The notes beneath the pieces are model-generated. The model did not search any database, was not told the DNA's origin, and was given only the letters and a program-made list of their open reading frames with translations. The position numbers and the translations under genes are program-made. A stretch of 64,000 nucleotides of DNA from an uncultured Allosphingosinicella sp. (GTDB taxonomy: Bacteria > Pseudomonadota > Alphaproteobacteria > Sphingomonadales > Sphingomonadaceae), in the NCBI GenBank assembly GCA_934539295.1, contig CAKTCN010000018.1, positions 1 to 64,000 of the forward strand. Direction: 5' to 3'. This document shows positions 6,337 through 62,522 of this stretch, one piece after another; the first letter of the stretch is position 1, and every line of letters begins with the position of its first letter.

Positions 6337-6441
6337 ACACGAAAAAGCCGGATCATCGCTGACCCGGCTTTCGCCTGCTTGAAGCAGAAATTCGATGGCG
6401 CGCCCGGAACGATTCGAACGTCCGACCCTCAGATTCGTAGT
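6337..6441. repeat. attL: copy of tRNA-Arg 3' half plus its terminator
   Basis: Matches 31484-31589 base for base except for one missing A. It includes the tRNA from the anticodon loop to CCA and the downstream hairpin 6342-6371 (AAAGCCGG/CCGGCTTT). Identity ends at 6441, inside the anticodon loop, where the sequence changes to TTTAAG. This is the old chromosomal tRNA end left behind after integration and it no longer encodes a whole tRNA. Confidence 0.93.
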
Positions 6442-6532: not shown

Positions 6533-6582
6533 GCCGCTTCCCGCTATCGTGATTGCTAGGTGCTTGCTGTGGAGCGACTTAC

Positions 6583-26506: not shown

Positions 26507-27094
26507 GTGGCAATCCTGACCCAACATGCGCTGCCTTGCGCGGATCCTGACGCGCCTCGGTCTTCGGATCGGGGCGCTATCTTGCGTGGGCCTAAGCAGC
26601 ACCAGTTCGAGGAAAGCCTGGCACTCTCTGAACGCTATGCCGACGCGGACTGGTGGATGCCTGTCTACCGCAAGGCCTTCCCACGTCTCCAGTCGGCGAT
26701 CTCCGTACGCGACGATGGGTGGGCGCAACGTGGCGGTGTCGATCGCGTTCTCACCCTCGCTTGCGGCCGGACCTACACTGTGGACGAGAAAATCAGGACC
26801 GCAGACTGGCCTGACATCCTGCTGGAGCAATGGAGCGACGAGGCTCGGCGCAAGCCCGGCTGGGTTCAGAAGCCGCTAGCCTGCGACTTTATCGCCTATG
26901 CCTATGCGCCGTCCGGCATGTGCTTCCTGCTGCCTGTCGTTCCCCTACAGCGCGCTTGGCGCCAGCATGGACGGGAGTGGATCAAGCGGTACGGCACGAG
27001 GAAGGCGCACAACCCAGGCTATGTGAGCGTCAGCGTGCCGGTACCGCGGTCGGTGATGGTCAGTGCGATCGCGGAAGCGATGATACTGGGCTAG
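26507..27094 (+). CDS. Possible PD-(D/E)XK-type nuclease-like protein (195 aa)
   Basis: GTG start at 26507, 27 bp after the previous stop. A central RVLTLACGRTYTVDEKIRTA stretch has a strand ending in D-E-K, like the E-x-K part of the PD-(D/E)XK core, preceded by SAISVRDDGWAQRGGVD. I recall similar uncharacterised phage proteins but cannot name a family. It precedes the DUF3800 gene and is possibly cargo of the element. Confidence 0.55.
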   Translation: MAILTQHALPCADPDAPRSSDRGAILRGPKQHQFEESLALSERYADADWWMPVYRKAFPRLQSAISVRDDGWAQRGGVDRVLTLACGRTYTVDEKIRTADWPDILLEQWSDEARRKPGWVQKPLACDFIAYAYAPSGMCFLLPVVPLQRAWRQHGREWIKRYGTRKAHNPGYVSVSVPVPRSVMVSAIAEAMILG

Positions 27095-27189
27095 CCCGCG
27101 AAGGGGCAAGGCACCAACCCTTTTCAACGCGTGAGCAGAAGCAGACGGGCAGATTCGACTTCATCTGCGTCACAGACTTATATCGGGCC

Positions 27190-28017
27190 ATGCGCCCTAC
27201 TCTCACCGTCTACATCGACGAAGCCGGGGATCCGGGGGTACGTGACGGATTACGCTACTCGAGCAGCCGGCACGAATGGCTCTGTCTGAGTGCCGTGGTG
27301 GTCCGTTCGATGCGGTCACCTGACTTGCCGGTGTGGGTGAGGGAGATGCGTGACGCAGCCAAATCAACCCAAGCAGGCTCGCTTCATTATCACCGCATCC
27401 TCACGGGCAGGCGTTCTGATGTATGTCAGACGCTGGCATCCAAGCCTTGCCGAGCCTTCGTCCTGGCCACTCACAAGTCGAACATGCGCGAATACGTGAA
27501 TGATCGCATCGGCGCGATGATATCCGGGGGCAAGTTCTACAACTGGTGCCTCCGCCTCCTTCTCGAGCGAGTCACGGCCTGGGCAGAAGAATGGCAGAAG
27601 CGCGAACTCGACACGGTCGAAGCTCTGGAAGTGGTATTCGCCCAGCGCGGCCACGATTATGAGCACTTCTTCTCGTATATCGACCTGCTCAAGATGCAGA
27701 AGCAGGCTGACAAGCTCTTCCTGAAAGGGCCCGGCCTTGCTCCCGCGCTTCTCGACCGCTCACGCTGGTCTGTCATCCCTGCAGCCGATCTGGCTGGTCT
27801 CCAATTAGCCGACACTGTGGCGAGCGCTTTCTACCAGGCTGCAAATGTCGCGTCGCCGACCTGGGATGTCACGCCGGCTCAAAGGTTGAAGCCGATCATC
27901 ATGGATAAGAATGGCTGCGCAGCGAACGTAGGTGTTACGGTGTTCCCGCTTCCTCACCAAGCCACGCTACCTGAAGAAGCTCGGCCGATTTTCCGAACGT
28001 TCGGCTACGAGTTTTAG
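27190..28017 (+). CDS. DUF3800 domain protein (275 aa)
   Basis: The ATG at 27190 (MRPTLTVYIDEAGDPGVRDG) begins the hallmark DUF3800 strand with IDEAGD. WLCLSAVVVRS, the later DYEHFFSYIDLLK and PAADLAGLQLADTVASAFYQ also fit. DUF3800 proteins have an RNase H-like fold with acidic active-site residues and are frequent on mobile DNA, often as suspected nucleases. The longer open frame from 26830 that overlaps the preceding gene is spurious. Confidence 0.85.
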   Translation: MRPTLTVYIDEAGDPGVRDGLRYSSSRHEWLCLSAVVVRSMRSPDLPVWVREMRDAAKSTQAGSLHYHRILTGRRSDVCQTLASKPCRAFVLATHKSNMREYVNDRIGAMISGGKFYNWCLRLLLERVTAWAEEWQKRELDTVEALEVVFAQRGHDYEHFFSYIDLLKMQKQADKLFLKGPGLAPALLDRSRWSVIPAADLAGLQLADTVASAFYQAANVASPTWDVTPAQRLKPIIMDKNGCAANVGVTVFPLPHQATLPEEARPIFRTFGYEF

Positions 28018-31483: not shown

Positions 31484-31589
31484 ACACGAAAAAGCCGGAT
31501 CATCGCTGACCCGGCTTTCGCCTGCTATGAAGCAGAAATTCGATGGCGCGCCCGGAACGATTCGAACGTCCGACCCTCAGATTCGTAGT
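31484..31589. repeat. attR of element 1, overlapping tRNA-Arg
   Basis: Second copy of the direct repeat at 6337-6441 with one extra A. The identity stops inside the anticodon loop of tRNA-Arg, which marks the crossover zone as the anticodon loop through the 3' end. The copy also contains the tRNA's terminator, so the element brought its own tRNA 3' end and terminator. Confidence 0.93.
31489..31518 (-). terminator. Intrinsic terminator of tRNA-Arg
   Basis: On the minus strand AAAGCCGG and CCGGCTTT (plus-strand arms 31511-31518 and 31491-31498) form a stem followed by a T run. It lies 26 bp past the CCA end. The attL copy keeps the same hairpin at 6342-6371. Confidence 0.8.
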
Positions 31590-31620
31590 CTGATGCTCTA
31601 TCCAGCTGAGCTACGGGCGC
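31544..31620 (-). tRNA. tRNA-Arg(ACG)
   Basis: The 77-nt cloverleaf reads from 31620: acceptor GCGCCCG paired with CGGGCGC, D arm GCTC/GAGC, anticodon stem TCAGA/TCTGA with loop CTACGAA (anticodon ACG), T arm GGACG/CGTTC with loop TTCGAAT, and an encoded CCA. The 5' part is chromosomal and the 3' part comes from element 1, so integration kept the gene whole. Confidence 0.97.
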
Positions 31621-39100: not shown

Positions 39101-40513
<1,413 letters not shown>

Positions 40514-45283: not shown

Positions 45284-45359
45284 GGCCCCTTCGTCTAGCG
45301 GTCTAGGACGTCGCCCTCTCACGGCGAAAACACGGGTTCGAGTCCCGTAGGGGTCACCA
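45284..45359 (+). tRNA. tRNA-Glu(CTC)
   Basis: 76 nt: acceptor GGCCCCT with AGGGGTC, anticodon stem TCGCC/GGCGA with loop CTCTCAC (anticodon CTC), T arm ACGGG/CCCGT with loop TTCGAGT and ACCA. It is the integration target of element 2, whose attL is its 3' end. Confidence 0.96.
45343..45359. repeat. attL of element 2
   Basis: TCCCGTAGGGGTCACCA is the last 17 nt of tRNA-Glu and recurs exactly at 62506-62522. Flanking bases differ on both sides, so the repeat is exactly 17 bp. Confidence 0.93.
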
Positions 45360-45447: not shown

Positions 45448-47436
45448 ATGAGATTCCGTGTGTCGCATATCCAAGTCCGAAAAAAGAGCCGCTTTCCCCG
45501 ATTCCGCATTCCGGTCCCGAAGGACCTTCAGGACCGGGTTGGCAAGATCGAGATCACGGGATCGCTAGGAACCACCGATCCGGACGAGGCGCTCGCAAAG
45601 GCGGCGCAGCTCAAGCTGGAGTGGAAGCAGCGGTTTCGGGACATGCGGGCGGCCAAGCAGGAAGAAGACCTGCAACGTGCTCCGGATCTGGTTCGAGACT
45701 TCCTCAAGCAGCTGGCTGATCGTCGCTTCGGAGACCTTGATGGTGCGATCTACGGCCTGCAAAAGGTCATTGCGCTGCGGCTGCTGACGTCGTGGGGTCC
45801 CGAGGAGTTCTACGGTCGCGGAGCCAACCGCGCGATCGCATTCGATCCGGACCCTTCGACGTGGGAGAGCTGGCAATCGGATACTGACCAGCTGAGCGAC
45901 ATCATCAGCGAGGCTGAGCGCGACGGGCTAATCGAGCGCCTCGCGCATTTAAGTCGTAACGCAGAGACGTTCGGGTTCGGGTTCCGCGAGATTCTCGAGC
46001 ATGTGCAGAGAAAGCGGCGCTGGGACGCCGTTCGCTTCGAGATGTTGATGATCGAGCAGTTCACGAACACGCCAATCCCTTTCCAGAGTCCTCTCTACGA
46101 AGCCGTCGCAGAGCACCTGCTGCGTCAATTGCACGAGTACCAGTCTCATCGCTGGAACATGGACCTTTTGTCCGCGCTCGGTCTGGTAGACAGCTCCGCG
46201 GCGGGCGTGCCGGCACGTCTGCCCGCGGCGGCTCGTCCAAGCCTGGCGCCGCCTCCGATAGCTAGGCCGCTCGACGAGCCGAGGTCTGGAGGCGAGTGGA
46301 GCAATGCTGGCAGTCGCACGCAGCCCGATCAGACCCTGACGGTCGGTCTCAAGCGCTGGATTGGCGCCATGGCGCCCGGCAGGAGCGCCATTACCGAGAC
46401 GACTCGGGCGGTTGAACGCTTTGTCGAGCTATTCGGCGACAAGCATGTCGCGCAGATCACCGACAACGATTTGTTCGATTATCGCGACTTCCTGAAGGAC
46501 ATGCCGGCCGGCATCAGCCTGCCCGCGCTGAAGAAGCAAGGCATGAGCCTTCGCTCATACACAGAGCGTCTCCACGCCGAAGAGGCTCGCCTCGAAGCCG
46601 AAGCCGAGCGACTGGATGACGCTTCTCCTGAACCCCGTCGCCTCTCTCCGCAATCAATCAAAAAGGACATCGGGGGGCTAAGCGCAATCTTCAGCGCTCT
46701 CGCTTCGGAACGCTGGATCCTCAAGAATCCTGCAGAGAGGATTCCGGTTGATGGCTACTCGAAACGGCGAAAGGTCTTCCCGCTAAAGCCGAGCATGATG
46801 AAGGATCTTTTTGACAGCCCGATGTTCACGGGCTGCGAAGGGAAGACCGCTGTTAAGCGCAGGCGGCCCGGACCGCACGTGTTCCAAGATGTGCTGTACT
46901 GGAGCTTCCTTTTCGGGGCGACATCAGGGCACCGGCTCGCCGAACTTGGGAAGGCGCGCTTGGAAGATGTCGAAGAAGGCGTTGGCCCAGACGGCGAGAC
47001 GATAGTCGGCATCTTCGCAACTGACGTAAAAAACGAGCATTCTGAACGCGTCATTCTCGTGCACCCCAAGCTCCTTGAACTGGGTTTCCTTCAATATGTT
47101 GAGGATCGCCGGAAGATCGGCGCTACCGATCTGTTCGACCTTCCTAAGGGTGGCGAAGGCGAGAATGCTGGGGTCAAGAAGCTGAGCGAGAAGGTCAACG
47201 AGTACCTCGATTCGATCATCGACGACCGACGTTACGTCTTCCATTCGCTACGTCATGAGTTTGCTGACCGCTCCGAAATCACCATTTCCGTAGAAGTGTC
47301 CAAGAAGATCATGGGGCATGCTCGGGGGCGCCTTTATGGCCTTGGCGCCCCGCTTCACCACGCTGCCGCTGAACTCAAGAAGCTGGATGTGAGCTTCATC
47401 GACTGGGATCGCCTGAAGGCGGCCGCACGGACATGA
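45448..47436 (+). CDS. Large tyrosine integrase (662 aa)
   Basis: ATG at 45448. The first 90 residues (RVSHIQVRKKSRFPRFRIPV, ITGSLGTTDPDEALAKAAQL) form the DUF6538-type N-terminal domain. A long middle region precedes a core-binding domain (about 310-440) and the catalytic domain: Arg in SGHRLAELGKARLED, Lys in TDVKNEHSERVI, HSLRHEFADR, MGHARG, and a Tyr in LYGLGAP. The extra length over ordinary integrases is typical of this group in alphaproteobacterial islands. Confidence 0.93.
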   Translation: MRFRVSHIQVRKKSRFPRFRIPVPKDLQDRVGKIEITGSLGTTDPDEALAKAAQLKLEWKQRFRDMRAAKQEEDLQRAPDLVRDFLKQLADRRFGDLDGAIYGLQKVIALRLLTSWGPEEFYGRGANRAIAFDPDPSTWESWQSDTDQLSDIISEAERDGLIERLAHLSRNAETFGFGFREILEHVQRKRRWDAVRFEMLMIEQFTNTPIPFQSPLYEAVAEHLLRQLHEYQSHRWNMDLLSALGLVDSSAAGVPARLPAAARPSLAPPPIARPLDEPRSGGEWSNAGSRTQPDQTLTVGLKRWIGAMAPGRSAITETTRAVERFVELFGDKHVAQITDNDLFDYRDFLKDMPAGISLPALKKQGMSLRSYTERLHAEEARLEAEAERLDDASPEPRRLSPQSIKKDIGGLSAIFSALASERWILKNPAERIPVDGYSKRRKVFPLKPSMMKDLFDSPMFTGCEGKTAVKRRRPGPHVFQDVLYWSFLFGATSGHRLAELGKARLEDVEEGVGPDGETIVGIFATDVKNEHSERVILVHPKLLELGFLQYVEDRRKIGATDLFDLPKGGEGENAGVKKLSEKVNEYLDSIIDDRRYVFHSLRHEFADRSEITISVEVSKKIMGHARGRLYGLGAPLHHAAAELKKLDVSFIDWDRLKAAART

Positions 47437-50583: not shown

Positions 50584-52485
50584 ATGGACTTCGGCCAGGG
50601 ATCGATCGGTGGGGGTGATCAGACGAGCAGCATCGGCGTAGCGGCGCCGATCGCGCGGGACCGCGCGGGCAGGCTGCCGGCCGGCGCGGATGGCCGCGCA
50701 ATCTTGGGCTTTGCAACGCTGAGTCACAGCAACCTCAAAAGCTGGGCCAAGATTGACGCGGCGCAAGGGCACAACACCAGGGCAATCGAGACGCCGAACG
50801 CCCGGAAGGATGCCCCGCCGCCGATCGAGCTCCTTGAGGAGAAGAGTGGAACCTATGTGGAGCGCGTGAAGGCGATCCTGCGCGAGCACGGTACGGCTGG
50901 GAAGCCGGTGAAAACTCGCAAGGGCGGCACCATTGCCAACGAGGACGTGTATGGGGCGTCGCCCGAGTACTGGAACCGAGCCGGCTCCTGGCGCCTGAAA
51001 TCGGTCGAGGAGATCACGAATGACCCCGTCGTCCAGGCCGCGGTCGCGCTCGCTCGTCGCAAGCACGGTCGACGGCTCGCATCCTGCTCGCTTCACCTGG
51101 ACGAGGAGTCCCCACACGTCCACGTGATCTCGGTCCCGCTGGTCGAACGGGCGCATTCGAGGCGGGGGCGGAAGCCTAAGGGCACGCCCCGCGACGCGAA
51201 CGGCAAGCCCCTCGAAGACTTGCGGCCCAAGGTCACGAAATGGACTTTGGACGTTTCCAGCGTCCGCGGTCGCTCGAGCGACTTGGAGAAGAACCACGAC
51301 GAGTGGGCAGCGGTCTGCCAGCCCTTCGGCCTTGTCCGTGGCCAGAGGGGCAGCGACATGACCACGGAGCAGCGTCGCGCCCGCCGCAACCGGCAGACCG
51401 GCCGCTCAAGCAAAGCAGAGATGGAAGCGCGGCAGGAGCGGGAGCGCCTGCACGAGGAAGCCGAGCGCTCCCGAGCGCGTGGAGCGGACTACGAAAAGGA
51501 AACCAAGACCAAGGCTGAAGCAGCCGAGGCGGATCGCATCGCAGCCAAGCAGGAGCGCGAGGAGGCCGAAGCCACGGCGGCTCGCGCTCGTGGTCAAGAG
51601 GCGGAGAACGAACGCATCCGCGGCGAGCTAGACGAGCGAGAGGCAATGCTGAAAAGGAGGGAGAACGAGGTCGAAGAGCAGGCTGCGTCCCTTGAACGCG
51701 AAGCCGCCCTCCACAATGATCAGATGCGGCTCATCTCAAAGGCTTTGGACCCCGCGAACCCGTTCGAACTTCATGATCGCGAGGGGCGAGTAGAGGTGGA
51801 AGGCGTCCTCGACGCGCAAGATAAAAACGCCAGTCACGGATCATGGGATTGGCTCACCGGCGGCATCGTCCAATTCGCGAAGCTACTGACAGGCCTTCGG
51901 GATCGGGAAGTAGCCGCGACCGAACGGTTTAAGAAGGCTGATGCAAAGCTCGAGGCAATCCGGGCTGCTCGAGAGAAGCTCGGAGAGGACCGCCTCGCGT
52001 TCCGGATGGCACAGGGCGCGGACCGACTCCGGATGGGCATTCTCGAGAAGGTAATTAGCCCGAGCGCGACGAACCGCTTGATCATGAAAGATGGCAAGGT
52101 CACGGTTCTGGAGCTCAGCGAGTCCGACAACAGCTTGCTCGATCAAGGCCCCGCCTGGTTCCGCGCGGCGTTTGATGGGTTCGTCAGGAGGATGTACGGC
52201 CTCGCCAAGGGCCAAGCCGATGTCAGCGCCCGCGAAAATGCCGTGGCGAAGCTGGAGGCTGAGAAAACTCTCCTGGCCGACCAGCGGACGGAGTTTGAGC
52301 GTGAGCAGTCCGCATGGAAGGCCACCCTCGCACGGGCTAAGGCATTTCAGACCGCATGGGAGCGTATAGCGCCCGAGGACCGCGCTCCGGCGGTTGAAGA
52401 GGCGTTAAACAAGGCCGGAGGTCTGACGACCGGCCACCTTCCGCCGGGCTACACTTTGCCCGGCGCAGGGGGCCCGGCGCGTTGA
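50584..52485 (+). CDS. MobV-type relaxase (633 aa)
   Basis: ATG at 50584 with GGGAAGCAGG upstream. About 35 residues precede the relaxase domain, which has FATLSHSNLKSWAKI, HNTR at 63-66 and HLDEESPHVH at 171-180, followed by ISVPLVE. Residues about 270-400 form a charged coiled coil and there is a further helical region near 540-610. This family acts in cis on oriT for mobilisation. It differs in length and C-terminus from the MobV of element 1, so the two elements obtained theirs separately. Confidence 0.9.
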   Translation: MDFGQGSIGGGDQTSSIGVAAPIARDRAGRLPAGADGRAILGFATLSHSNLKSWAKIDAAQGHNTRAIETPNARKDAPPPIELLEEKSGTYVERVKAILREHGTAGKPVKTRKGGTIANEDVYGASPEYWNRAGSWRLKSVEEITNDPVVQAAVALARRKHGRRLASCSLHLDEESPHVHVISVPLVERAHSRRGRKPKGTPRDANGKPLEDLRPKVTKWTLDVSSVRGRSSDLEKNHDEWAAVCQPFGLVRGQRGSDMTTEQRRARRNRQTGRSSKAEMEARQERERLHEEAERSRARGADYEKETKTKAEAAEADRIAAKQEREEAEATAARARGQEAENERIRGELDEREAMLKRRENEVEEQAASLEREAALHNDQMRLISKALDPANPFELHDREGRVEVEGVLDAQDKNASHGSWDWLTGGIVQFAKLLTGLRDREVAATERFKKADAKLEAIRAAREKLGEDRLAFRMAQGADRLRMGILEKVISPSATNRLIMKDGKVTVLELSESDNSLLDQGPAWFRAAFDGFVRRMYGLAKGQADVSARENAVAKLEAEKTLLADQRTEFEREQSAWKATLARAKAFQTAWERIAPEDRAPAVEEALNKAGGLTTGHLPPGYTLPGAGGPAR

Positions 52486-52509: not shown

Positions 52510-53238
52510 CTACAGGAGCGCCTGTTCCAGCCGCTCCTTCCGCTTGGCATGATCTGGCATCACCTCGCTCAACAGGCGCCTGAACTGCTCACCATGATCC
52601 GCATGGACGAGGTGACAGAGTTCATGCGTGATCACATAGTCGATGCAGGCCTGGGGCGCTTGGATCAGGTCGCGTGAGAGGACCATGTTGCCAACATCGG
52701 TCATGCTTCCCCACCGGTGCGTGAGATCGCGGATGAGGAGGCGCGGCGGTTCGGAGCGGTACGAGGCGAATGGTGCGAACATCGCATGAAGCCGCTTTCG
52801 ATAGACGCGCTTCGCCTCCTCGAAGCGCCATCTACGCAGTAGCGTTGCCCGCTCGTCCAGCCGGTTCGGCCGATGCATGGCGAGGACGATACGATCGCCG
52901 TCGATCCGCACGCCTTCGGCCAGCGCCTGCTCCACGGCAAGGCGCAGCTGTCGGCCGAGATGGAGGTGTGTCTCCCCCTCTTCAAAGGTCCGCGGCGGAG
53001 TCCGAGGCCGGTACCTCTCGGCCCGAGCCTGTTGGGCAAGGATCCATCCCGCTCGCCTGCGGACCCGCTCCTCTATGTCGTTTAGCTCCGCGCCCGACGG
53101 CGCCCGCACCAGAACCGAGCCGTCAGCTCGAACGGTAATTCCGAGCGTTTTTCTGTTCGACCGCTGCACCGCGAACGGCACCTCCTGCCGACCGTAGCGA
53201 ACCGAGCAGACCTCCGAGACCTCGGCCTGCCCGGTCAT
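52510..53238 (-). CDS. YgjP-type (DUF45) zinc metalloprotease (242 aa)
   Basis: ATG at 53238 overlaps the hsdR stop. The family signature is plain: DLTHRWGSMTDVGNMVLSRD, then HELCH in YVITHELCHLVHADHGEQF, the HExxH zinc motif, and the terminal helices. The N-terminal part (RSNRKTLGITVRADGSVLVR) is the usual WSS/SprT-like front. Genes of this type are often found directly after hsdR in type I systems, but their role there is not established. Confidence 0.92.
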   Translation of the reverse strand: MTGQAEVSEVCSVRYGRQEVPFAVQRSNRKTLGITVRADGSVLVRAPSGAELNDIEERVRRRAGWILAQQARAERYRPRTPPRTFEEGETHLHLGRQLRLAVEQALAEGVRIDGDRIVLAMHRPNRLDERATLLRRWRFEEAKRVYRKRLHAMFAPFASYRSEPPRLLIRDLTHRWGSMTDVGNMVLSRDLIQAPQACIDYVITHELCHLVHADHGEQFRRLLSEVMPDHAKRKERLEQALL

Positions 53239-56200
53239 CGGGCCAACCGCCGACGAGCGACCGCCAGGACACGCTCCGCGATCGCATCGACGACCTCTAA
53301 GCTAAGGGCGATCTCGAGCTCTGCCGGCGCGACGTCCAGGAACCAGTCCTCGAAAGCATTGCGCATCTCGTTCTGGACATTGGTGTCATCCTGCCACCCG
53401 ACGCGGAGTCTTGAGCGAATGATATCCAGCAGCTTCGCTGCGACCGCTTGCGCCGCCTCCGTCGCCTGCGGTGCCAGCCTAGCCAGTTCCTCGCCGACGA
53501 CGCCCTCGACGGCGGCAAGGTCGGGATCGAGCGACGCGCCGCCGCCCTCGGCTCCTCCGGCGCCCGTCCAGCGTTCCGCACCTTCCCGGCGCAGTTCTTC
53601 GACCCGCCGCAGATACTCCTGCTCGTCGATCCGGCGCTGGCGCCACGCGTCGATCGTTGCGCGAACCATCTCGGAGAAGCGTTTGTTGAAGGCGGGATCC
53701 TCCTCCATCTTCTCCGTCGCAGTGCGCTCCAACTTGCTCGCGATCTCGTCAGCGAGGCTCGCCGCGCTCCGACCATCATCGCGGTCCAGTCCGGCGGCCA
53801 AGCCGGCCTCCTCGAGGATATCTACGGGCGCGATCACCTGGCTGACGCCGGTGGCCGTCACGTGTGTGTCCAGCAACTTCTGGACCCTGGCCTCATACCG
53901 AGCCCAGTCGAGCGCATCGCCGTAGCGAAGCCTGACTTCCGCTCGAAGATCCTCGAACCTCTTGAGATCGTCCTTCCAGCGCCTGATGCGGTCGGGGCGC
54001 TCACTCTCGACGAACTGCCGGGACGCCAGCGCCAGGCCCAGTGCTGACGCGAATGTGGACAAGGCCCGCTGGAACTGGTCGCGCAGTACTTCATCGGCGA
54101 GCGCGCGAGCATAGGCCTCACGATCCAAGCGGTTCGATACGCCGTCGAAGAGCGACAACAGGGCGGCGTGCAGCTCCGGCAGTTTCGCCGCCTCCTCGCG
54201 GATTGATACGAGCGCCCCTGAGATGTCCGCGGCGTCGTATCCGGCGAGCGCCTCATATTCGACGAGGCTGCCGGTGAGGTTCTCCAGCACCCCGCAATAA
54301 TCGACCACGAGCCCAAACCGCTTCTCCGGCGCGTCCTCGTCCTCGAAGACGCGGTTGACGCGCGCGATCGCCTGCAGGAGCCCGTGCTCGATAAGCCGCT
54401 TTCCGATGTACAGGACGGCATTCCGCTGGACGTCAAAGCCGGTCAGCAGCTTGGAAACGACGATGAGAAGATCCGGTGCGTCGGGACTGTCGAACGCCTC
54501 GATGATCCCCGCATTGTACCGGTCTTCATCGCCCCACCGGTCCATCATCCGCTTCCAAAATTGCTGGACGAGGTCACGGGAGGCGCGGTCGGTTTCCTCG
54601 TGGCCTTCCCGAGCGTCGGGGCCGGAGATAACGACCTCGGCGGTGACGCGTAAGCCGGTCGGGTCGGCGTCGTTGAGCTCTTCGAATATCTCTAGCATGC
54701 GGACCGCGGCCGCTTTACTGGGCGCGACGAGCTGGCCCTTGAGGCCCGTGCCGGCGAAGTTCTCGAGGAAATGGGCCCGTGCGTCCCAGGCCATCGCCTT
54801 GAGGCGCGCAGATACGCCCTGCAAGGCTTTGGCGGAGGACATCCGCTTCTTGAGCTCGGCCTGCTGAGACGGGGCGAGGCCCTGACTCTCGCGGTCGAAC
54901 CAGGCGTCCAGCGCGGCGTCGGATAGATCCTCATCAACGGCGCGGCCCTCGTAGATCAGAGGAACCACGGCGCCGTCGGTCACTGCGTCACGGATCGAGT
55001 ACTTGTCGACCAGCGGGCCGAACTTGATGAAGGTGTTACGCGCGGGCTTTTTGAAAAGCGGCGTGCCGGTGAAGCCGATGTAGCAGGCGTTCGGCAACAC
55101 CTTGCGCATGTCGGCATGAAGGGAGTCATCATCCCCGTATTGGCTGCGATGGCTCTCATCGACGAGCACGAAGATATTGGGATCGTCGTCGATCGTCGGC
55201 TTCCGAGCGACCCCGGCGCGGAACTTATTTACCAAGGTCGTGATCAGTGGCGTGCCGGCTTGGATCAGCTCCATGAGATGAGCACCGGTCCGAGCCTGCT
55301 TCGGCTCGCGCTGACACGCTTTGAAGGTATTCCGGATCTGCCGGTCGAGATCCCGCCGGTCGGTAACGAGGATCACGCGCGGGTTCTCGACTCCCCAGTT
55401 CAGCGCCCGGGCGAGCATCACCATAGTCAGCGACTTGCCGGAGCCTTGCGTGTGCCAGACGACACCACCTTGCCGGCGTGCGCCGCCGGCTTCCCGCTTC
55501 TCGATATGGTCCAGCAGGCGAAGCACCGCGCTCACTTGCTGCCAGCGTGCGACCTTCTTCACGCCCTTGTCGAAGAGCGTGAAGCGCCGTGCCATGTCGA
55601 GTAGCCGGCGAGGTGAGCCAAGACCCACGATCGTGCGGTCCATGTCCGTCGTCCACCGATTCCGCGCTTCGCAGAGTCGGAAATGGCGCTCCGCATAGCC
55701 TTGGAAGTCGGCCAACATCGCTTCCCATTCGTCCCCGGCCGGCATGGAATTCACAGCCGTCTCGACGATATCGTCCGATAGGCCGTGCGGAGGCGCCGGC
55801 TCTTTCCACACGGACCAGTATTTCGCTGGAGTGCCGACGGTGCCGTATTTCGGCTCGTTCGGCATGCCTGCGATCAGAACCTGTTGGGTGACGAAAAGCT
55901 GCGGCGCACCGTCGTCCGTCTTCTGGTTGCGGATCGTTTGGCTGATCGCCTGCGCTGTCTTCTCGCCAGTACGCTTGAGCTCGAGACTGGCAAAAGGTAT
56001 GCCATTGACGAACAGGACAATGTCCGGCCGCACCTCGGCGGTGCGCCCCTGCACCGCGAACTCCGCGGTCATGTGGAAGCTGTTCTTCTCCCACTCGTCG
56101 CCCCAGGCGACGAAGCGAAAAGGTCGCTCCCGGCTAAGACCGCCGACCGTCTGCGGCACAGCGACGCCGAGCAGCAGCATGTCGGTGGCGATCTCGTTGG

Positions 56201-56486
56201 TCTTGAGCAGCCCATCGAAGCGCAGATCGCGCAGCCGCCGCAGCCCTTCCTCGATCCCGCTTTCCGTGAAGGGATGTCGTGCGCCATCCTGTTCGAAGCT
56301 GTTGATCCGGGCGAGCGCCTCGCGTGCCATGTCCTCCAGGATCACAGCGCCACGCCGACCTCCCCGCTGCCGCTCCGCCTCGGCCCGCGACACATAGCGC
56401 CAACCGAGATTGGCCAGGGTCGTGAGCGCCTGCAGCTGGACGCCGCCGGCTTCGGAAAGGGCGAAGTCGGGCGAACGGGCAGTCAC
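53235..56486 (-). CDS. hsdR: Type I restriction endonuclease subunit R
   Basis: 1083 residues from a GTG at 56486 (TARSPDFALSEAGGVQL). N-terminal nuclease: RPDIVLFVNGIPFASLELKR, with the D...ELK of PD-(D/E)XK. Motor domain: Walker A WHTQGSGKSLTMVMLARAL, the DEAD-like VDESHRSQYGDDD, and FTGTPLFKKPARNTFIKFG. The C-terminal helical domain contacts HsdM. It cuts unmodified DNA after translocation. The start overlaps the zinc-ribbon gene stop by 4 bp. Confidence 0.96.
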   Translation of the reverse strand: MTARSPDFALSEAGGVQLQALTTLANLGWRYVSRAEAERQRGGRRGAVILEDMAREALARINSFEQDGARHPFTESGIEEGLRRLRDLRFDGLLKTNEIATDMLLLGVAVPQTVGGLSRERPFRFVAWGDEWEKNSFHMTAEFAVQGRTAEVRPDIVLFVNGIPFASLELKRTGEKTAQAISQTIRNQKTDDGAPQLFVTQQVLIAGMPNEPKYGTVGTPAKYWSVWKEPAPPHGLSDDIVETAVNSMPAGDEWEAMLADFQGYAERHFRLCEARNRWTTDMDRTIVGLGSPRRLLDMARRFTLFDKGVKKVARWQQVSAVLRLLDHIEKREAGGARRQGGVVWHTQGSGKSLTMVMLARALNWGVENPRVILVTDRRDLDRQIRNTFKACQREPKQARTGAHLMELIQAGTPLITTLVNKFRAGVARKPTIDDDPNIFVLVDESHRSQYGDDDSLHADMRKVLPNACYIGFTGTPLFKKPARNTFIKFGPLVDKYSIRDAVTDGAVVPLIYEGRAVDEDLSDAALDAWFDRESQGLAPSQQAELKKRMSSAKALQGVSARLKAMAWDARAHFLENFAGTGLKGQLVAPSKAAAVRMLEIFEELNDADPTGLRVTAEVVISGPDAREGHEETDRASRDLVQQFWKRMMDRWGDEDRYNAGIIEAFDSPDAPDLLIVVSKLLTGFDVQRNAVLYIGKRLIEHGLLQAIARVNRVFEDEDAPEKRFGLVVDYCGVLENLTGSLVEYEALAGYDAADISGALVSIREEAAKLPELHAALLSLFDGVSNRLDREAYARALADEVLRDQFQRALSTFASALGLALASRQFVESERPDRIRRWKDDLKRFEDLRAEVRLRYGDALDWARYEARVQKLLDTHVTATGVSQVIAPVDILEEAGLAAGLDRDDGRSAASLADEIASKLERTATEKMEEDPAFNKRFSEMVRATIDAWRQRRIDEQEYLRRVEELRREGAERWTGAGGAEGGGASLDPDLAAVEGVVGEELARLAPQATEAAQAVAAKLLDIIRSRLRVGWQDDTNVQNEMRNAFEDWFLDVAPAELEIALSLEVVDAIAERVLAVARRRLAR

Positions 56487-57463
56487 GCGGAAAACAGCCC
56501 CAAGGACCGCCGAAGGGTGGCTATGAGCTCTTGGCTAAAGCCCTCCGCATCGCCCGCGTCCCACATCACCGTGGTACAATGATTGGTGTCGAAGTGCGTA
56601 CCCTGCGCATCGAAAATGGCCTTCTTGCAGAGGTAGAGGACTGGCTTACCAAGCCCCTCTGCAAAGCCCGCCTCCCAGTAGGCCCCCGCATTTGCATGCG
56701 TCAGATCTACCAACACGAAAGCCGCGTCCCGAATGCGAGCCCGCATGACATTGTCGATCACGCCGGCACGAGCGGCGTCTCGCAAGTCTTCGAGCGTGTA
56801 GCCTAGCGAGGCGACAGCAGGCTTGATCACGTCGCGGAGAAAGGGATCGAGCTCGGGATCGCCGAACTTCAGGGCAATGAACCCGTGGCTACCCGCGACA
56901 CGCCCGTGCCGTTCCGCTTCCCAGACTTCCCACCCCGACAAACTGAGATCGAGGTTGATCGTGTCGTACGGCCCGTCATGCGAGCCCGCTTCAATGCCAG
57001 AGAGATGGCCACGAAGCATCAACTCGCGCACAAGCCGCATTGCGGCGTTCCAATTCGCCGCGCCCACCGATGCGTAAAAAGACAAAGGTGGATGCGACAG
57101 AGCCTCGCCAGTCTCGCTTACGTAATTTCCGATGTACCGAATGATGTTGGTCGCCTGCTGCGCCGGCGAGGGAAGTTTGGCCCGCCCCTCAATCAACTGA
57201 CCTTCGATCCAGTCGGTCATCAACATCGGCGGCCTTCCGCCCGCGTCGTTTGCTGACCGGATGGTGTGGGAAATGGCGGCGCGTTTTACCGGGCTCCAGT
57301 TAGGATAATCCGGCTGTAGGTAGGAGCGAAGGGCAGTACCTGAGGCTTCGAATTCGCCACAGATATCGCAACGGAAGCTTGTCGCGTCCTTGCCCTCATT
57401 CCAAGAAACACATCCCGAGCCGTTGGGGCTGAGACAAATCGGACATTGAACCGGCGTCGTCAT
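56483..57463 (-). CDS. Zinc-ribbon nucleoside-deoxyribosyltransferase-like protein (326 aa)
   Basis: ATG at 57463, overlapping the hsdS stop by 1 base. The N-terminus has a four-Cys ribbon (C7, C10, C32, C35: CPIC...CDIC). Residues about 50-180 are an unassigned helical region. The C-terminal part (about 190-326) has GFIALKFGDPELDPFLRDVI, ARIRDAAFVLVDLTHANAGA, YWEAGFAEGLGKPVLYLCKK and FDTNHCTTVMWD, the pattern of nucleoside 2-deoxyribosyltransferase-like proteins related to TIR/SLOG folds. It is embedded between hsdS and hsdR, so a role in the defence response is plausible but not shown. Confidence 0.8.
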   Translation of the reverse strand: MTTPVQCPICLSPNGSGCVSWNEGKDATSFRCDICGEFEASGTALRSYLQPDYPNWSPVKRAAISHTIRSANDAGGRPPMLMTDWIEGQLIEGRAKLPSPAQQATNIIRYIGNYVSETGEALSHPPLSFYASVGAANWNAAMRLVRELMLRGHLSGIEAGSHDGPYDTINLDLSLSGWEVWEAERHGRVAGSHGFIALKFGDPELDPFLRDVIKPAVASLGYTLEDLRDAARAGVIDNVMRARIRDAAFVLVDLTHANAGAYWEAGFAEGLGKPVLYLCKKAIFDAQGTHFDTNHCTTVMWDAGDAEGFSQELIATLRRSLGLFSA

Positions 57464-58686
57464 TACTCCGCCGCCTCCCGTTCTCGAGCCTCACCGAGCC
57501 GCCACTCGCCGGTCAGCAGCTTCTGCATCAGCCCGCGCTTCTGGCGGCGCAGCGCACCGGCTTCGGCCATTAGGAGATCAAGTTCATGATTGAGGGCTTC
57601 GAAAAGTCTGCCGACCTCTTCCTGATGAGATAGGGGCGGGAGGTTGACCCTGATTTCACCGAAGTGCTCGAAACGGAGCTGAAGCTGGTCGTCGACTAGA
57701 CCCTGTGAGTACCGCCAGAAGCGGTGAATCATGGCAGGGAACTTGAACAGGTGAGCCGCGAAGGTTCCATCGATTACCCCCTCTTTCGGTGATGCGACGG
57801 TGTAGGCGGGACTGATCAAGCCGGTCAGCTGCGATAGGCCGCTGACACCCTGCCACATTCGCATGGTGTTGTAGCCAATGTCACCGGGGCGGATCACTTT
57901 GTAAGCCGACTTGTCGGCGGCCGAAGTGTCCCGCCTTTCGATGCTTTCCCGGTCGACAACGCCACCATTGCTCGTGATCCCCAGCAAGGGCTGGCTTTCA
58001 CCACGCTCGTCCCGCTCCGTAAATGCGTCGCGCAACGGCATTGATCTCCAGCCGGCTGGGGTCGTCGGATCAAGACAAGGTTCCAGGAGTCTTCGACCGA
58101 GCACCGCTATTTGTGTTCGCTTTGCCGAGATTATCGCTTGAATCGCGGCAATCGCCCGGTCCCAAGTTTCAAACCGCTGTTCAAGCTCATCCTGCACACG
58201 GCGTGGCGGTAGGATAACGGGAAAACCAGAAAGCAATCCTTGGTTTAGGTTTGAGATATTCGTGCCGCCACCCTGCTCGTGCAAGCGCCGGTAGAAAAAC
58301 TCCGAGGTGAAGAGACGCCGTGCAAAACGACGATTTAGTCGATCACTCAAGACCCGGGCGCGAATTGTGAATCCAGAAAAGGTGACGGCTTCTCCATTCG
58401 GATGAACGCTCATACAGCGTCCGATGAGTGCTTTGTTCCCATTAGATCGGACGAATAGGAGATCGCCGTCCTGCAGATGATCGTCCGGTGCTAGGTTGCC
58501 ACCGACATGGACTATTTCCAAACCGTCGATCTCGTTCAACATCGTACGCGAACAGAAGTCACCGACTCCAACTATCCTCACGGGCGCTCCCGTACTTTGA
58601 CGCGTGAAGTTGATGCCGTTTCTGAACGATGCCAGGTGGCCGAAAGGTATGATCTCCCAACCGGGCGGAAGCTGGCCTTCACGCAT
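57463..58686 (-). CDS. hsdS: Type I restriction specificity subunit S
   Basis: ATG at 58686 (MREGQLPPGWEIIPFGHLAS) overlaps hsdM by 8 bp. 407 residues with two target-recognition domains and the two conserved helical spacers: ILPPRRVQDELEQRFETWDR and LPPLSHQEEVGRLFEALNHE with RRQKRGLMQKLLTGEWRL. The target sequence cannot be read from the protein. Confidence 0.93.
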   Translation of the reverse strand: MREGQLPPGWEIIPFGHLASFRNGINFTRQSTGAPVRIVGVGDFCSRTMLNEIDGLEIVHVGGNLAPDDHLQDGDLLFVRSNGNKALIGRCMSVHPNGEAVTFSGFTIRARVLSDRLNRRFARRLFTSEFFYRRLHEQGGGTNISNLNQGLLSGFPVILPPRRVQDELEQRFETWDRAIAAIQAIISAKRTQIAVLGRRLLEPCLDPTTPAGWRSMPLRDAFTERDERGESQPLLGITSNGGVVDRESIERRDTSAADKSAYKVIRPGDIGYNTMRMWQGVSGLSQLTGLISPAYTVASPKEGVIDGTFAAHLFKFPAMIHRFWRYSQGLVDDQLQLRFEHFGEIRVNLPPLSHQEEVGRLFEALNHELDLLMAEAGALRRQKRGLMQKLLTGEWRLGEAREREAAE

Positions 58687-60193
58687 AGACGCCGAGCTCC
58701 GCGAGATAATGTTTCATCTTTGCACGCGTTGCGACGAGCTCGGCCTCCAGCCGATCGATCTCGCGCTGAACCTCCGCGACGTCGATCTCAGGCTCGCGCT
58801 CGAATGTGTCGACGTAGCGCGGGATGTTAAGGTTGAAGCCGTTTGAGTCGATCTCCGTGAACGGCGCGACGTGGGCATAGCGCTCAATGTCTTGGCGCGC
58901 CTCGACAGCGGCAAGAATGTCTGCGACTTGCGCCTCCTCCAGGCTATTCTGCCGCTTGCCTGGGGTGAATGCGCGGCTCGCGTCGACGAACATCACGTCC
59001 CGGCAGTCGGCCCGGGCGCCTCCTATCTCGCGGGAGCGGTCGAAAACCAAAAGGCAGACCGGGATGCCAGTGGAGGGGAAGAGCTGTGGCGGCAGCCCGA
59101 TCACCGCATCGAGCAGATTTTTGCGAACGATGCTCTCTCGAATGCGCCCCTCGGCGCCGCCACGAAACAGCACCCCATGCGGCGCGACGCAGACGACGCG
59201 CCCTTCGCCGCGCTTGGCGATGGCCAGCATGTGGAGGATGAAGGCATAGTCGCCCCGGCTCTTCGGCGGCACGTCGGGCGAGAAGCGACGAAAGGGGTCA
59301 GTCGCGGCGTCCTCGGCTCCCCACTTGTCGAGGCTGAAGGGTGGATTGGATACGACGCGATCGAACTGCATCAGGCGGTCGGACTCGACCAGCGCCGGCC
59401 CCGTCAGCGTGTTGCACCATTCAATGCGGGCATTGTCCTCGCCGTGCAGGAACATGTTCATCTTGGCGAGGGCATGCGTCGAGCCGTTGACCTCCTGGCC
59501 GAACAGCTGGTGATCGGGCGATGCCGCGGCTTCGCCGGCGCGGATCAGCAGCGAGCCTGACCCGCAGGCGGGATCGCAGATACGCATCCCGGGCCCGGGC
59601 TTCGCCAGCCGCGCGACCAGCTGCGAGACCTTCTTCGGCGTGTAGAACTCGCCGGCCTTCTTCCCTGCATCCGACGCAAAGCGGCTGATGAGGTAAATGT
59701 ATGCCTCGCCGAGCGCATCCTCACTGACGCGATCGGGAGTCAGCTTGAGCTGGGGCTTGGCGAAGTCTTCGAGCAGCAGCCGCAGCAGGCGATTACGCTC
59801 GCGGGTGGCGCCGAGCAGGCTCTCCGAATTGAAGTCGATTGGACGGAACAGATCCTTCAGCTTCGGATCGTTCTCCCGCTCGATCGCGTCGAGCGCCTTG
59901 TTGATCTCCTCACCGAGATTGTCGACCTGGCGCTTCGCATGAATGGTCCAGAAGTCGGTGCCCTCGGGAAGGGTGAAGCGGGCGCGCTTCATCTGGCGTT
60001 CGACGCGGGGATCGGATGGGCCGTACTGCTTCAGCAGCTCCTGCTTCCGGGCTTCGGACGTGTCGGACAGATATTTCCAGAACAGGACCGCCAGAATGAG
60101 ATCCTTGTAGCGGGTCGCATCGACAGCACCGCGAAAGGTGTCGCAGGCCTGCCAGATCGCGTCGTTGAGTTCGTTCTGCGAAAGCTTGGTCAT
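58679..60193 (-). CDS. hsdM: Type I DNA methyltransferase subunit M
   Basis: 504 residues from MTKLSQNELNDAIWQACDTF. The N-terminal HsdM domain is followed by the SAM-binding motif GMRICDPACGSGSLLIRAG (near residue 205) and the catalytic NPPF in DRVVSNPPFSLDKWG, which marks an N6-adenine methyltransferase. The C-terminal helix binds HsdS. It starts 60 bp after the DUF2188 stop. Confidence 0.96.
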   Translation of the reverse strand: MTKLSQNELNDAIWQACDTFRGAVDATRYKDLILAVLFWKYLSDTSEARKQELLKQYGPSDPRVERQMKRARFTLPEGTDFWTIHAKRQVDNLGEEINKALDAIERENDPKLKDLFRPIDFNSESLLGATRERNRLLRLLLEDFAKPQLKLTPDRVSEDALGEAYIYLISRFASDAGKKAGEFYTPKKVSQLVARLAKPGPGMRICDPACGSGSLLIRAGEAAASPDHQLFGQEVNGSTHALAKMNMFLHGEDNARIEWCNTLTGPALVESDRLMQFDRVVSNPPFSLDKWGAEDAATDPFRRFSPDVPPKSRGDYAFILHMLAIAKRGEGRVVCVAPHGVLFRGGAEGRIRESIVRKNLLDAVIGLPPQLFPSTGIPVCLLVFDRSREIGGARADCRDVMFVDASRAFTPGKRQNSLEEAQVADILAAVEARQDIERYAHVAPFTEIDSNGFNLNIPRYVDTFEREPEIDVAEVQREIDRLEAELVATRAKMKHYLAELGVYA

Positions 60194-60252
60194 GGTCGTT
60201 CCAATCGAAAAGAAAGGCGGGACGGCGCATGCCGCCCCGCCGGAAGTTGCGT

Positions 60253-60504
60253 TCAGCCCTTGGGCGGGTTCGGATCCCGGCCATGGCTGTCCTTGGACTG
60301 GATCTTCCCGTCGCGGCCGTGGATCACCAGCTCGGAGCCTTCGCGGCGGCTCTGGTCCCGCGCGCGATCGACCGCATCCTGCTTGGTTTCATGGTGACTC
60401 GACGCCCGATCGCCGCCTCCACGCTTGTTGTCCCAGCCGCCGCTGGGGTTCGGAACGACATGACGGCTGCCGCCGCCCTTGCTACCGTTACCGCTGTTCG
60501 CCAT
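60253..60504 (-). CDS. DUF2188 domain protein (83 aa)
   Basis: MANSGNGSKGGGSRHVVPNP opens a Gly/Ser-rich front with WDNKRGGGDRASSHHETKQD and then DAVDRARDQSRREGSELVIH GRDGKIQ, the DUF2188 pattern (a small strand-helix-strand domain with His-x-W-like front and DGxI end). It lies between the single-TRD HsdS and hsdM with gaps of 12 and 60 bp. Function in a restriction operon is unknown. Confidence 0.8.
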   Translation of the reverse strand: MANSGNGSKGGGSRHVVPNPSGGWDNKRGGGDRASSHHETKQDAVDRARDQSRREGSELVIHGRDGKIQSKDSHGRDPNPPKG

Positions 60505-60516
60505 CTTAGGTGTTCC

Positions 60517-61158
60517 TTACTTCGAGGTGAGGACTGACCGATCGCCCTTCGGGTGGTCGGCCTGATGAGACCCACGGCGAGGGTTGCCGCCCTCGTCGTG
60601 GGCATTCCCCAGCAGGCGCTGGAGAATCTGCTGGTTGAGCTGCCGGCGCAGCTCACGCAATCTGTCGAGGAGCCGCTGCTCGGCCTCCATGCACTCCGCG
60701 AGCGCAGCGATCTTCCGCTGCGTTTCGAGTGGCGGCAGCGGGATCTCGACGCTGCCAAGGGCCTGTACTGAGAGGCGAGACAAGGCCGCGCCCTGGGAAT
60801 CCGCACTCAACGCCTCGCGCGTCCGCGGCAGATTTAGGAAAGCCGCGACGTAGCCAGCGTCCACCCTCGACCGGTCCGGACGGAAGAGAAGCACGTCGTT
60901 GCTCGGATAGGCACCCTCCGCGGAGCCTGTCACTTTCGCGGCGATCGGGAGGCCGCGACCGCGCACAACGACATCATCAGATTTCAATCTCGCGGCGCGT
61001 CCGCGCGTCGGCACGCCCCCGTCGCTCGGTGAGGCGAGCGAGCCATTCTCCAGAATATCGCCGGCGCGAATGTATTGTGCGGCAGATGCCGACTCGCGCT
61101 GATACGCGGTGGGCGTCGCACCGACCATCGTGTCACCGAGTTCGCCAAGAGCTTTCAT
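60517..61158 (-). CDS. Single-TRD HsdS-like protein (213 aa)
   Basis: Start at the ATG at 61158 (MKALGELGDTMVGATPTAYQ), GGGTGGGG upstream. One target-recognition domain (QYIRAGDILENGSLASPSDG; VDAGYVAAFLNLPRTREALS; LSRLSVQALGSVEIPLPPLE) and one spacer helix (QRKIAALAECMEAEQRLLDR). It is half the length of the full HsdS (57463-58686) and is the first gene of the operon. Half-S proteins can dimerise and bind HsdM, or act as stand-alone DNA binders. Confidence 0.82.
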   Translation of the reverse strand: MKALGELGDTMVGATPTAYQRESASAAQYIRAGDILENGSLASPSDGGVPTRGRAARLKSDDVVVRGRGLPIAAKVTGSAEGAYPSNDVLLFRPDRSRVDAGYVAAFLNLPRTREALSADSQGAALSRLSVQALGSVEIPLPPLETQRKIAALAECMEAEQRLLDRLRELRRQLNQQILQRLLGNAHDEGGNPRRGSHQADHPKGDRSVLTSK

Positions 61159-61205
61159 CCCCACCCGCCTACCCTTCGCGCTGCGTTCGCGCAAGCAGAT
61201 TTTGT

Positions 61206-61242
61206 GTTGTCACGCGTGTCTAACACTGTTAGCCGTTGTCAC
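61206..61242. promoter_or_regulatory. Repeat cluster in the divergent gap between the restriction operon and the TIR gene
   Basis: CTAACACTGTTAG (61220-61232) is a perfect palindrome with a central C, flanked by direct repeats GTTGTCAC at 61206-61213 and 61235-61242. The cluster lies in the 191-bp gap (61159-61349) that must hold promoters for both directions. It is a candidate operator; no matching regulator gene is adjacent. Confidence 0.45.
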
Positions 61243-61349
61243 AACGCTCCAACATGAAAAAGCGTTTGACGATGCCGCCGACGAGGTATAGGGGCCCTTG
61301 CGCGGCAGGGCTCGATGGCCCTCCAAACACCTCTCTCAATGGAGCCAAC

Positions 61350-62372
61350 GTGAGCCGGTCCGTCTTCATCAGCCATGCCGTCGCCGACAAGCCGCTCGTG
61401 GAGGCGTTCGTGCGATTTCTAGAGGATGGCATCGGCCTGCCCGAAGCGGAGATCTTCTGCGTATCGATTCCCGGGATGGGCATCCCGACGGGCACTTCCT
61501 TCGTGAATTACATCCGCGACGAGATGACGAGGCCGGCCCTGGTGATCATGCTCATCACGCCAAATTATCTCGCCAGCGCCTTCTGCCAAGGCGAGATGGG
61601 CGCGGCCTGGATCAAGGGGCATCGCATCTTCCCGCTCATCGTTCCTCCCTCCACGTTCGCTGACATGGGCGGCGTCTTCTTGGGAACCCAGGCGATCAAG
61701 ATCGACGACGATGTGCGGGTGAATGAGTTGAAGGACGCCCTGGTTAGCACCGTCCGCTTTACGCCGAAATCTACGTCGCGTTGGGACCTTGCGCGCAAGG
61801 ATTTCTACGGCAAGCTCCCCGCTCTCATCCAGTCGCTGCCTCCAGCCCAGACTGTGTCTCGGCAGGCGCACGAGGAACTGCAGGCCAAATATGAAGACGC
61901 CTTGGGGGAGATGAGTGATCAGGAAGAACAGATCCGTCGTCTGCGGGATCAGATCACCGCCCTTGAAAATGCCAAGAATGCGGAGGAGGTCGCAGAAATT
62001 GCCGCCGCTTTCAGCGACACTGAAGCTGGCGAGCAGCTACTCGCGCTGTTGAAGGATGCAAAGGCGGCAATTGCCAGCCTCGGGCCCACCGTGCTGCGCA
62101 TGCACGTCCTTGCAAAATACCACAGCAAGCCGTTCGAAGGGTGGCGTGATGATCCCGAGGTCTTCGACGCGGCAGTGCGGCGGAACCTGCTCACCGAGGA
62201 ACTCGACCTTCGTTGGAATGCTGCGCAGATCAAGCGCGTCACTAATGCCCTCGAGACCATAGATGCGTTCGTGCGTTTAAACAGCGACGAGCTTGAGGGG
62301 TTCGCCGAACGGGAGTTCGACGCGCCGCTCGAAACGGACAACGAGGACTTCTGGCGCGAGCACCTCCTCTAA
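61350..62372 (+). CDS. TIR-domain protein with coiled coil (340 aa)
   Basis: GTG start at 61350 with GGAGCC upstream; the frame is open from 61236 but the upstream part is not TIR-like. SRSVFISHAVADKPLVEAFV opens the TIR domain, with RPALVIMLITPNYLASAFCQ and a Glu (E82) in GEMGAAW at the catalytic NADase position. A coiled coil follows (about 165-215: EQIRRLRDQITALENAKNAE), then an unrecognised helical C-terminus of about 120 residues. TIR effectors deplete NAD+ or make signal nucleotides in phage defence. It is divergent from the restriction operon. Confidence 0.88.
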   Translation: MSRSVFISHAVADKPLVEAFVRFLEDGIGLPEAEIFCVSIPGMGIPTGTSFVNYIRDEMTRPALVIMLITPNYLASAFCQGEMGAAWIKGHRIFPLIVPPSTFADMGGVFLGTQAIKIDDDVRVNELKDALVSTVRFTPKSTSRWDLARKDFYGKLPALIQSLPPAQTVSRQAHEELQAKYEDALGEMSDQEEQIRRLRDQITALENAKNAEEVAEIAAAFSDTEAGEQLLALLKDAKAAIASLGPTVLRMHVLAKYHSKPFEGWRDDPEVFDAAVRRNLLTEELDLRWNAAQIKRVTNALETIDAFVRLNSDELEGFAEREFDAPLETDNEDFWREHLL

Positions 62373-62505: not shown

Positions 62506-62522
62506 TCCCGTAGGGGTCACCA
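62506..62522. repeat. attR of element 2
   Basis: Exact copy of the 17-bp tRNA-Glu 3' end (TCCCGTAGGGGTCACCA). It marks the right boundary; the region after it belongs to the host chromosome. Confidence 0.93.

Follow-up and report, generated by a model that had tools for sequence, protein, structure and literature searches.

The 64,000-nucleotide window analyzed here, from contig CAKTCN010000018.1 of an uncultured Allosphingosinicella sp., carries a type I restriction-modification (R-M) operon with an additional gene between hsdS and hsdR (56483..57463, minus strand). We label the product of this gene, a zinc-ribbon protein with a deoxyribosyltransferase (NDT)-like domain, RIB. On balance, we favor the reading that RIB is a largely autonomous defense effector, carried as cargo in a known slot of the type I operon, on an island integrated at a tRNA-Glu gene. 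This reading draws on gene order, gene overlaps, slot variability and conserved residues, all of which are observed, and on protein folds, which are predicted.

Structural models and fold comparison predict that RIB consists of a zinc ribbon, a winged helix and an NDT/DNPH1-like domain. Residues Cys7, Cys10, Cys32, Cys35 and Glu264 are conserved, and Glu264, which lies inside a DLTHANxGAYWEAG motif, is invariant. The solved folds nearest to the modeled C-terminal domain include DNPH1 and NDT, and the winged helix resembles those of MarR-type regulators. With Foldseek alone, neither RIB model had a match at E <= 0.001, and these fold assignments therefore depend on a second aligner. Searching the PDB sequences with a RIB profile returned nothing meaningful. 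The sole Pfam match, which scores under the curated cut-off, is Nuc_deoxyrib_tr (PF05014), the family to which a 100%-identical database entry is assigned. Three profile libraries, read up to E 0.1, gave no ATPase family for RIB. RIB thus appears to combine the NDT/DNPH1 fold, as modeled, with a conserved active-site glutamate, in agreement with the deoxyribosyltransferase-like fold suggested in a preliminary description of this locus; we predict an NDT/TIR-type domain. It would share this fold and the invariant glutamate with NDT, DNPH1, MilB and the SPARTA TIR, and would differ from them in its added zinc ribbon and winged helix. Based on the models, RIB is probably an uncharacterized nucleotide-hydrolase effector. 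A shorter RIB subfamily of about 220-250 residues (L018, L019, L023, L026 and others) seems to lack the zinc ribbon while keeping the NDT-type domain.

The preliminary description listed seven minus-strand genes and a divergent TIR gene at 52510..62372, and all eight are present with the domains named. In order of transcription, the minus-strand genes encode a half-HsdS with one target-recognition domain (60517..61158; Pfam Methylase_S, 1.2e-6), a DUF2188 protein (60253..60504; Pfam, 4.8e-25; PADLOC candidate PDC-S16, 8.9e-33), HsdM (58679..60193; Pfam N6_Mtase, 8.3e-89, and HsdM_N, 1.8e-24; DPACGSG and NPPF motifs), a 407-residue HsdS (57463..58686; PADLOC Specificity_I, 1e-52 over residues 6-397), RIB, HsdR (53235..56486; TIGR00348, 409 bits for a cut-off of 284.55; SWI2_SNF2, 1.4e-74; PD...ELK nuclease motif) and, as the last gene of the operon, a YgjP-like metallopeptidase (52510..53238; Pfam YgjP-like, 1e-47; HELCH motif). 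The open reading frame (ORF) of the half-HsdS opens at 61194, and translation probably starts at ATG 61158 instead, giving 213 residues. Pfam gives one stretch only in HsdS; both halves of the protein (residues 7-172 and 229-359) match single halves of other PADLOC S models. Judged from sequence, the parts of a type I enzyme are all here: an HsdR with nuclease and SF2 motor, an HsdM of the N6-adenine methyltransferase type, and an HsdS with two target-recognition domains.

Adjoining genes overlap by 8 nt at hsdM/hsdS, 1 nt at hsdS/RIB (TAATG), 4 nt at RIB/hsdR (GTGA) and 4 nt at hsdR/ygjP (ATGA). These are the four overlaps reported initially, and they link RIB and YgjP with the rest of the hsd operon. 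Upstream, 12 bp separate half-hsdS from DUF2188, and 59 bp separate DUF2188 from hsdM. The 59-bp gap contains a terminator-like hairpin on the minus strand (60241-60216; 11 pairs, -27.1 kcal/mol, z -3.07), equaled by 1 of 200 shuffled sequences and followed by the U tract UUUCUUUU. This arrangement makes a single continuous seven-gene transcript doubtful, and half-hsdS and DUF2188 probably form a transcription unit of their own.

To place the operon among its relatives, HsdR was searched in draws of 369, 385, 300 and 246 genomes, with some genomes in more than one draw. Matches kept at E <= 1e-100, 1e-150 or 1e-130, depending on the draw, came from 39 genomes; five of these, in which the contig ends in or near hsdR (G279, G204, G091, G455, G1033), were left out, and 34 loci with flanks were compared. 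Genes in these loci are mechanical ORF picks, and matches to RIB, DUF2188 and TIR were called at E <= 1e-4. The ygjP gene follows hsdR in 33 of the 34 (the exception is L159). Of the 28 relatives in which hsdM is visible, 25 have a half-HsdS ahead of it. In 23 of those 25, half-hsdS overlaps hsdM or lies within 40 bp of it, whereas the window has DUF2188 and the hairpin in between. None of the 34 loci contains a match to RIB, DUF2188 or TIR (0/34 each). Therefore, YgjP and half-HsdS are core components, and the other three are not. A single conserved seven-gene system, the order proposed at the outset, is rejected on these counts; of the accessory genes then associated with the operon, YgjP and half-HsdS can be retained as conserved members, and RIB, DUF2188 and TIR cannot. 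As inferred from sequence comparison, the lineage core comprises half-hsdS, hsdM, hsdS, hsdR and ygjP, with internal cassette slots. The pairing of a single-domain HsdS with a full HsdS, seen in the window and in those 25 relatives, is a conserved trait of the lineage, and the half-HsdS might provide a second specificity by pairing with another copy of itself. For DUF2188, present in 26 of 246 genomes of one order, a link to R-M was also considered and is not supported: window-type hsdM, hsdS or hsdR occurs within 1.5 kb of it in 0 of 29 loci, a count in which divergent hsd genes could be missed.

Slot A, between hsdM and hsdS, is occupied by a RhuM protein in 16 of 28 relatives (for example, L120:3887-4951). 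Slot B, between hsdS and hsdR, is the site occupied by RIB in the window, and at least one same-strand ORF is found there in 22 of the 30 relatives with a visible hsdS, L167 being doubtful among them. Complete Kiwa pairs (KwaA and KwaB) lie between hsdS and hsdR in two loci (L126:8566-9971 and L164:6540-7945), and a third has a weak KwaA match beside a neighbor without a KwaB match (L157). Other slot-B cargo includes a dGTPase with DUF4917 (L165), DUF4917 (L135, L137, L160), Abi_2 (L135), a KAP NTPase (PDC-S20; L133), HerA (L162), DUF3800 (L120, L121, L125, L128), an OLD-like ATPase (L120), AAA_21 (L122), Fic with DUF559 (L138), PIN (L156), HAD (L129, L155), DUF6119 (L168), RhuM (L132) and an ORF without a family match (L130). 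Many of these are defense genes, and Kiwa, dGTPase and HerA are systems of their own. The slot is empty in seven loci (L124, L131, L158, L159, L161, L163, L166) and contains only an HsdS fragment in another (L136). Because the ORFs were picked mechanically, slot contents that match no family (L130, L167) are uncertain.

Close pairs of loci allow a more detailed view of this variability. L129 and L130 have 99% identical HsdR proteins and unrelated slot-B genes. Their DNA is 98% identical through half-hsdS and hsdM and into RhuM, patchy in hsdS (pieces of 88-97%), unalignable in slot B, and again 98% identical from a point 3 bp inside hsdR until beyond ygjP. The same break pattern is seen for L165/L167 (HsdR 96%, hsdR-ygjP DNA 88%), L121/L122 (91% and 91%) and L133/L136 (88% and 82%), the slot being filled in one member of the last pair and empty in the other. 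Across the pairs, identity ends no more than about 25 bp from the end of hsdS and returns 3-35 bp into hsdR. Such breaks fit what cassette exchange would leave, with L129/L130 as a near-clean snapshot.

RIB relatives elsewhere form a sparse family, with 114 confirmed stretches in 84,980 genomes (two search patterns only). Plasmids yielded 4 weak matches and viral contigs two loci, and the closest metagenomic relatives are 80% and 71% identical (P0002, P0003). An hsdM match lies near RIB in 1 of 82 loci (80 genome loci and two viral contigs), counted within the flanks compared, where a divergent hsdM could be missed and some contigs are short. In this locus (L075:9995-16982), the RIB homolog is directly upstream of a 783-residue ORF, HsdR-like by eye, and of the HsdS and HsdM of another, apparently type I, system. 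RIB has no same-strand neighbor within 30 bp in 64 of 81 loci. In the open-licence literature, covered mostly as titles and abstracts, we found no pairing of type I R-M with a deoxyribosyltransferase and recognized no report of Kiwa in a type I operon; as far as this search reaches, RIB seems new as type I slot cargo.

The divergent gene (61350..62372, plus strand; ORF from 61236) encodes an N-terminal SpbK-like TIR domain (PADLOC spbK, 3.2e-31; PDB SpbK, 3.4e-16), a probable coiled coil and a helical tail. Its start is probably GTG 61350, giving 340 residues, since the nearest relatives have 336-340. A search with a query beginning two codons inside this GTG found only 16 relatives besides the window protein. 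Glu82 is invariant in all 17 aligned sequences, the window protein included, and falls on E192 of SpbK when counted along the PDB SpbK alignment with an inferred 24-residue tag. The available text of the SpbK report places E192 at the NAD+ site (PMC12847820). The earlier suggestion of an NADase-type TIR is consistent with the presence of the domain and of this glutamate. According to the same partial source, SpbK has an N-terminal four-helix portal-binding bundle and a C-terminal TIR domain (PMC12847820), whereas in the window protein the TIR domain is N-terminal and the probable coiled coil follows. TIR is better read as a separate single-gene cargo of the island; matches to it occur in none of the 34 R-M relatives and none of the 82 RIB loci.

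The island is delimited by a 17-bp direct repeat, of which one copy is the 3′ end of tRNA-Glu(CTC) (attL, 45343..45359, plus strand) and the other lies at 62506..62522 (attR, plus strand). Between the two copies are a DUF6538 protein with a C-terminal HSLR...GH motif read by eye, the probable tyrosine recombinase of the island (45448..47436, plus strand; Pfam DUF6538, 1.8e-14), a MobA/MobL-type protein, a PolB-exonuclease-like protein, a Mob_Pre-type relaxase (50584..52485, plus strand; Pfam Mob_Pre, 1.4e-10), then the R-M operon and, last, TIR. The R-M operon and TIR are therefore cargo of a 17.2-kb integrated island, which, from its gene content, is probably mobilizable. A plasmid search found no near copy of the window operon. 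The host is probably related to Sphingomonas: a protein encoded at 39146-40513 (plus strand), PntB as judged by eye, shares 85% identity with its match in Sphingomonas quercus (G010, the genome of locus L014). A second integrated element occupies 6337-31625 of the window. The tRNA-Arg(ACG) end and its flank recur there as a long direct repeat (copies at about 6337-6440 and 31484-31590, ~25 kb apart), and an ORF at 6553 is integrase-like by eye. Another ORF of this element (26830-28017) is DUF3800-like by eye, a family that also occupies slot B in four relatives.

Type I operons with embedded cargo have been described before. In the partial text available, the RptR-RMS-DarTG-M48 (RRDM) island of enteropathogenic E. 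coli has seven ORFs, with defense genes between hsdS and hsdR, a site that its authors call a potential recombination hotspot for defense systems, and a metallopeptidase gene after hsdR (PMC12255303). The window operon has the same cargo and metallopeptidase layout. RRDM differs in its cargo, DarTG2, whereas the window slot-B gene matches only Nuc_deoxyrib_tr in Pfam, and in having the RptR repressor first, whereas the window operon is led by half-HsdS and DUF2188 (no search for RptR was made). The hsd loci of Campylobacter jejuni carry ORFs in the same two slots: rlo genes separate hsdR from hsdS, and mlo genes separate hsdS from hsdM (PMC5183652, citing Miller 2005). Their cargo is different, including RloC-type genes, and the available portions of the reports mention no YgjP or half-HsdS (PMC5183652, PMC2610378). 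PrrC, also encoded within a type IC locus, is described as being kept silent by the R-M enzyme until inhibition of EcoprrI sets it free (PMC2610378, PMC12707154). Like the putative effector RIB, PrrC is embedded in a type I locus, and it differs in being an ABC-ATPase anticodon nuclease, neither part of which RIB matches. These precedents show that slot cargo in type I operons is already known. The gene order at the prrC locus is hsdS-prrC-hsdR. Payne et al. are also said to have described embedded defenses in 2024.

We propose that the zinc ribbon and winged helix of RIB would sense a nucleic-acid feature of infection. Its NDT/DNPH1/TIR-type domain may in turn cleave NAD+ or a (deoxy)nucleotide at the N-glycosidic bond, and this cleavage would stop growth and phage replication. 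Through translational coupling, RIB would be produced together with HsdS and HsdR. The restriction enzyme would cut unmethylated DNA first, with RIB and the SpbK-like TIR as further layers, presumably independent of Hsd. Several observations weigh against an autonomous defense effector. The PF05014 match scores 26.4 bits, under the curated cut-off of 28.8; the NDT fold is also used in nucleotide salvage and sanitation; and slot B also accepts genes without an obvious immune role. None of the other loci compared has RIB in slot B, so that the link between RIB and the slot is one case. In 17 of 81 RIB loci there is a close same-strand neighbor, 6 with a 4-nt overlap, and some RIB relatives may therefore have partners. 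It is also possible, though rather improbable, that RIB has no immune role and is either a hydrolase that sanitizes nucleotides or a regulator that responds to them, its gene having entered the slot by chance. DNPH1 and NDT act on nucleotides, the winged helix is MarR-type-like, and HAD-like genes are also found in slot B, all of which suits such a role; the sparseness of the family argues against it. So does the neighborhood of RIB, where PADLOC families matched at 1e-10 number 137 for the 138 proteins scanned within 2.5 kb (of 149, leaving aside those over 700 residues) and 38 for the 116 scanned at distances above 5.5 kb (of 121, with the same size limit), although this comparison counts families rather than proteins and is therefore only a hint that RIB lies among defense genes.

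Alternatively, RIB could be a PrrC-like guard of restriction, silenced by the Hsd complex and released by phage anti-restriction proteins, so that death follows only when restriction fails, in line with the second response to failed restriction raised in the preliminary description. Its position between hsdS and hsdR, coupled to both, is compatible with this role, and PrrC itself is a precedent. As RloC shows, a gene seldom found next to R-M genes may still be connected with restriction: RloC is linked to R-M in 8 of 72 cases, and its authors propose action in trans (PMC2610378). Nevertheless, 81 of 82 RIB loci have no nearby hsdM match, whereas PrrC orthologs are, in the same source, invariably linked to type Ic R-M (PMC2610378). 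Because RIB relatives are so rarely near hsdM, and because several slot-B genes (Kiwa, dGTPase, HerA) are systems of their own, we prefer autonomous cargo and regard a guard as unlikely. We consider it very improbable that RIB and the divergent TIR form one two-step NAD/nucleotide system, controlled from an intergenic region that also serves the R-M operon. In favor are the TIR/NDT-type folds of both proteins, their location on the same island and the distance of 191 bp between the preferred TIR and half-hsdS starts. Against this, TIR is missing from the R-M relatives and RIB loci compared, has few relatives, and is the last gene before attR, and the promoter scan found no sigma-70-type site in either direction. 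Since RIB relatives are rarely near hsdM and neither RIB nor TIR occurs in the 34 R-M relatives, the two are better read as separate island cargo than as two arms of one response.

Finally, the slot itself deserves attention. We doubt, but have considered, that the hsdS-hsdR slot is a general guard slot in which any coupled cargo, RIB included, is restrained by the Hsd complex until anti-restriction proteins set it free. If this were true, PrrC would exemplify a broad and swappable "restriction-failure" module, to which RIB would add a new effector, a nucleotide hydrolase gated by a zinc ribbon and winged helix. While embedded type I cargo is already known, its exchange is closely visible here, in L129/L130, where flanks of 98% identity enclose different genes, and the slot is therefore a practical place to seek new defense genes. 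RIB, whose family is sparse, is a concrete defense candidate: its candidate active site is conserved, and two of its predicted domains are of nucleic-acid-binding type. Slot exchange also makes the question of guard versus passenger testable, by cargo swaps within one operon.

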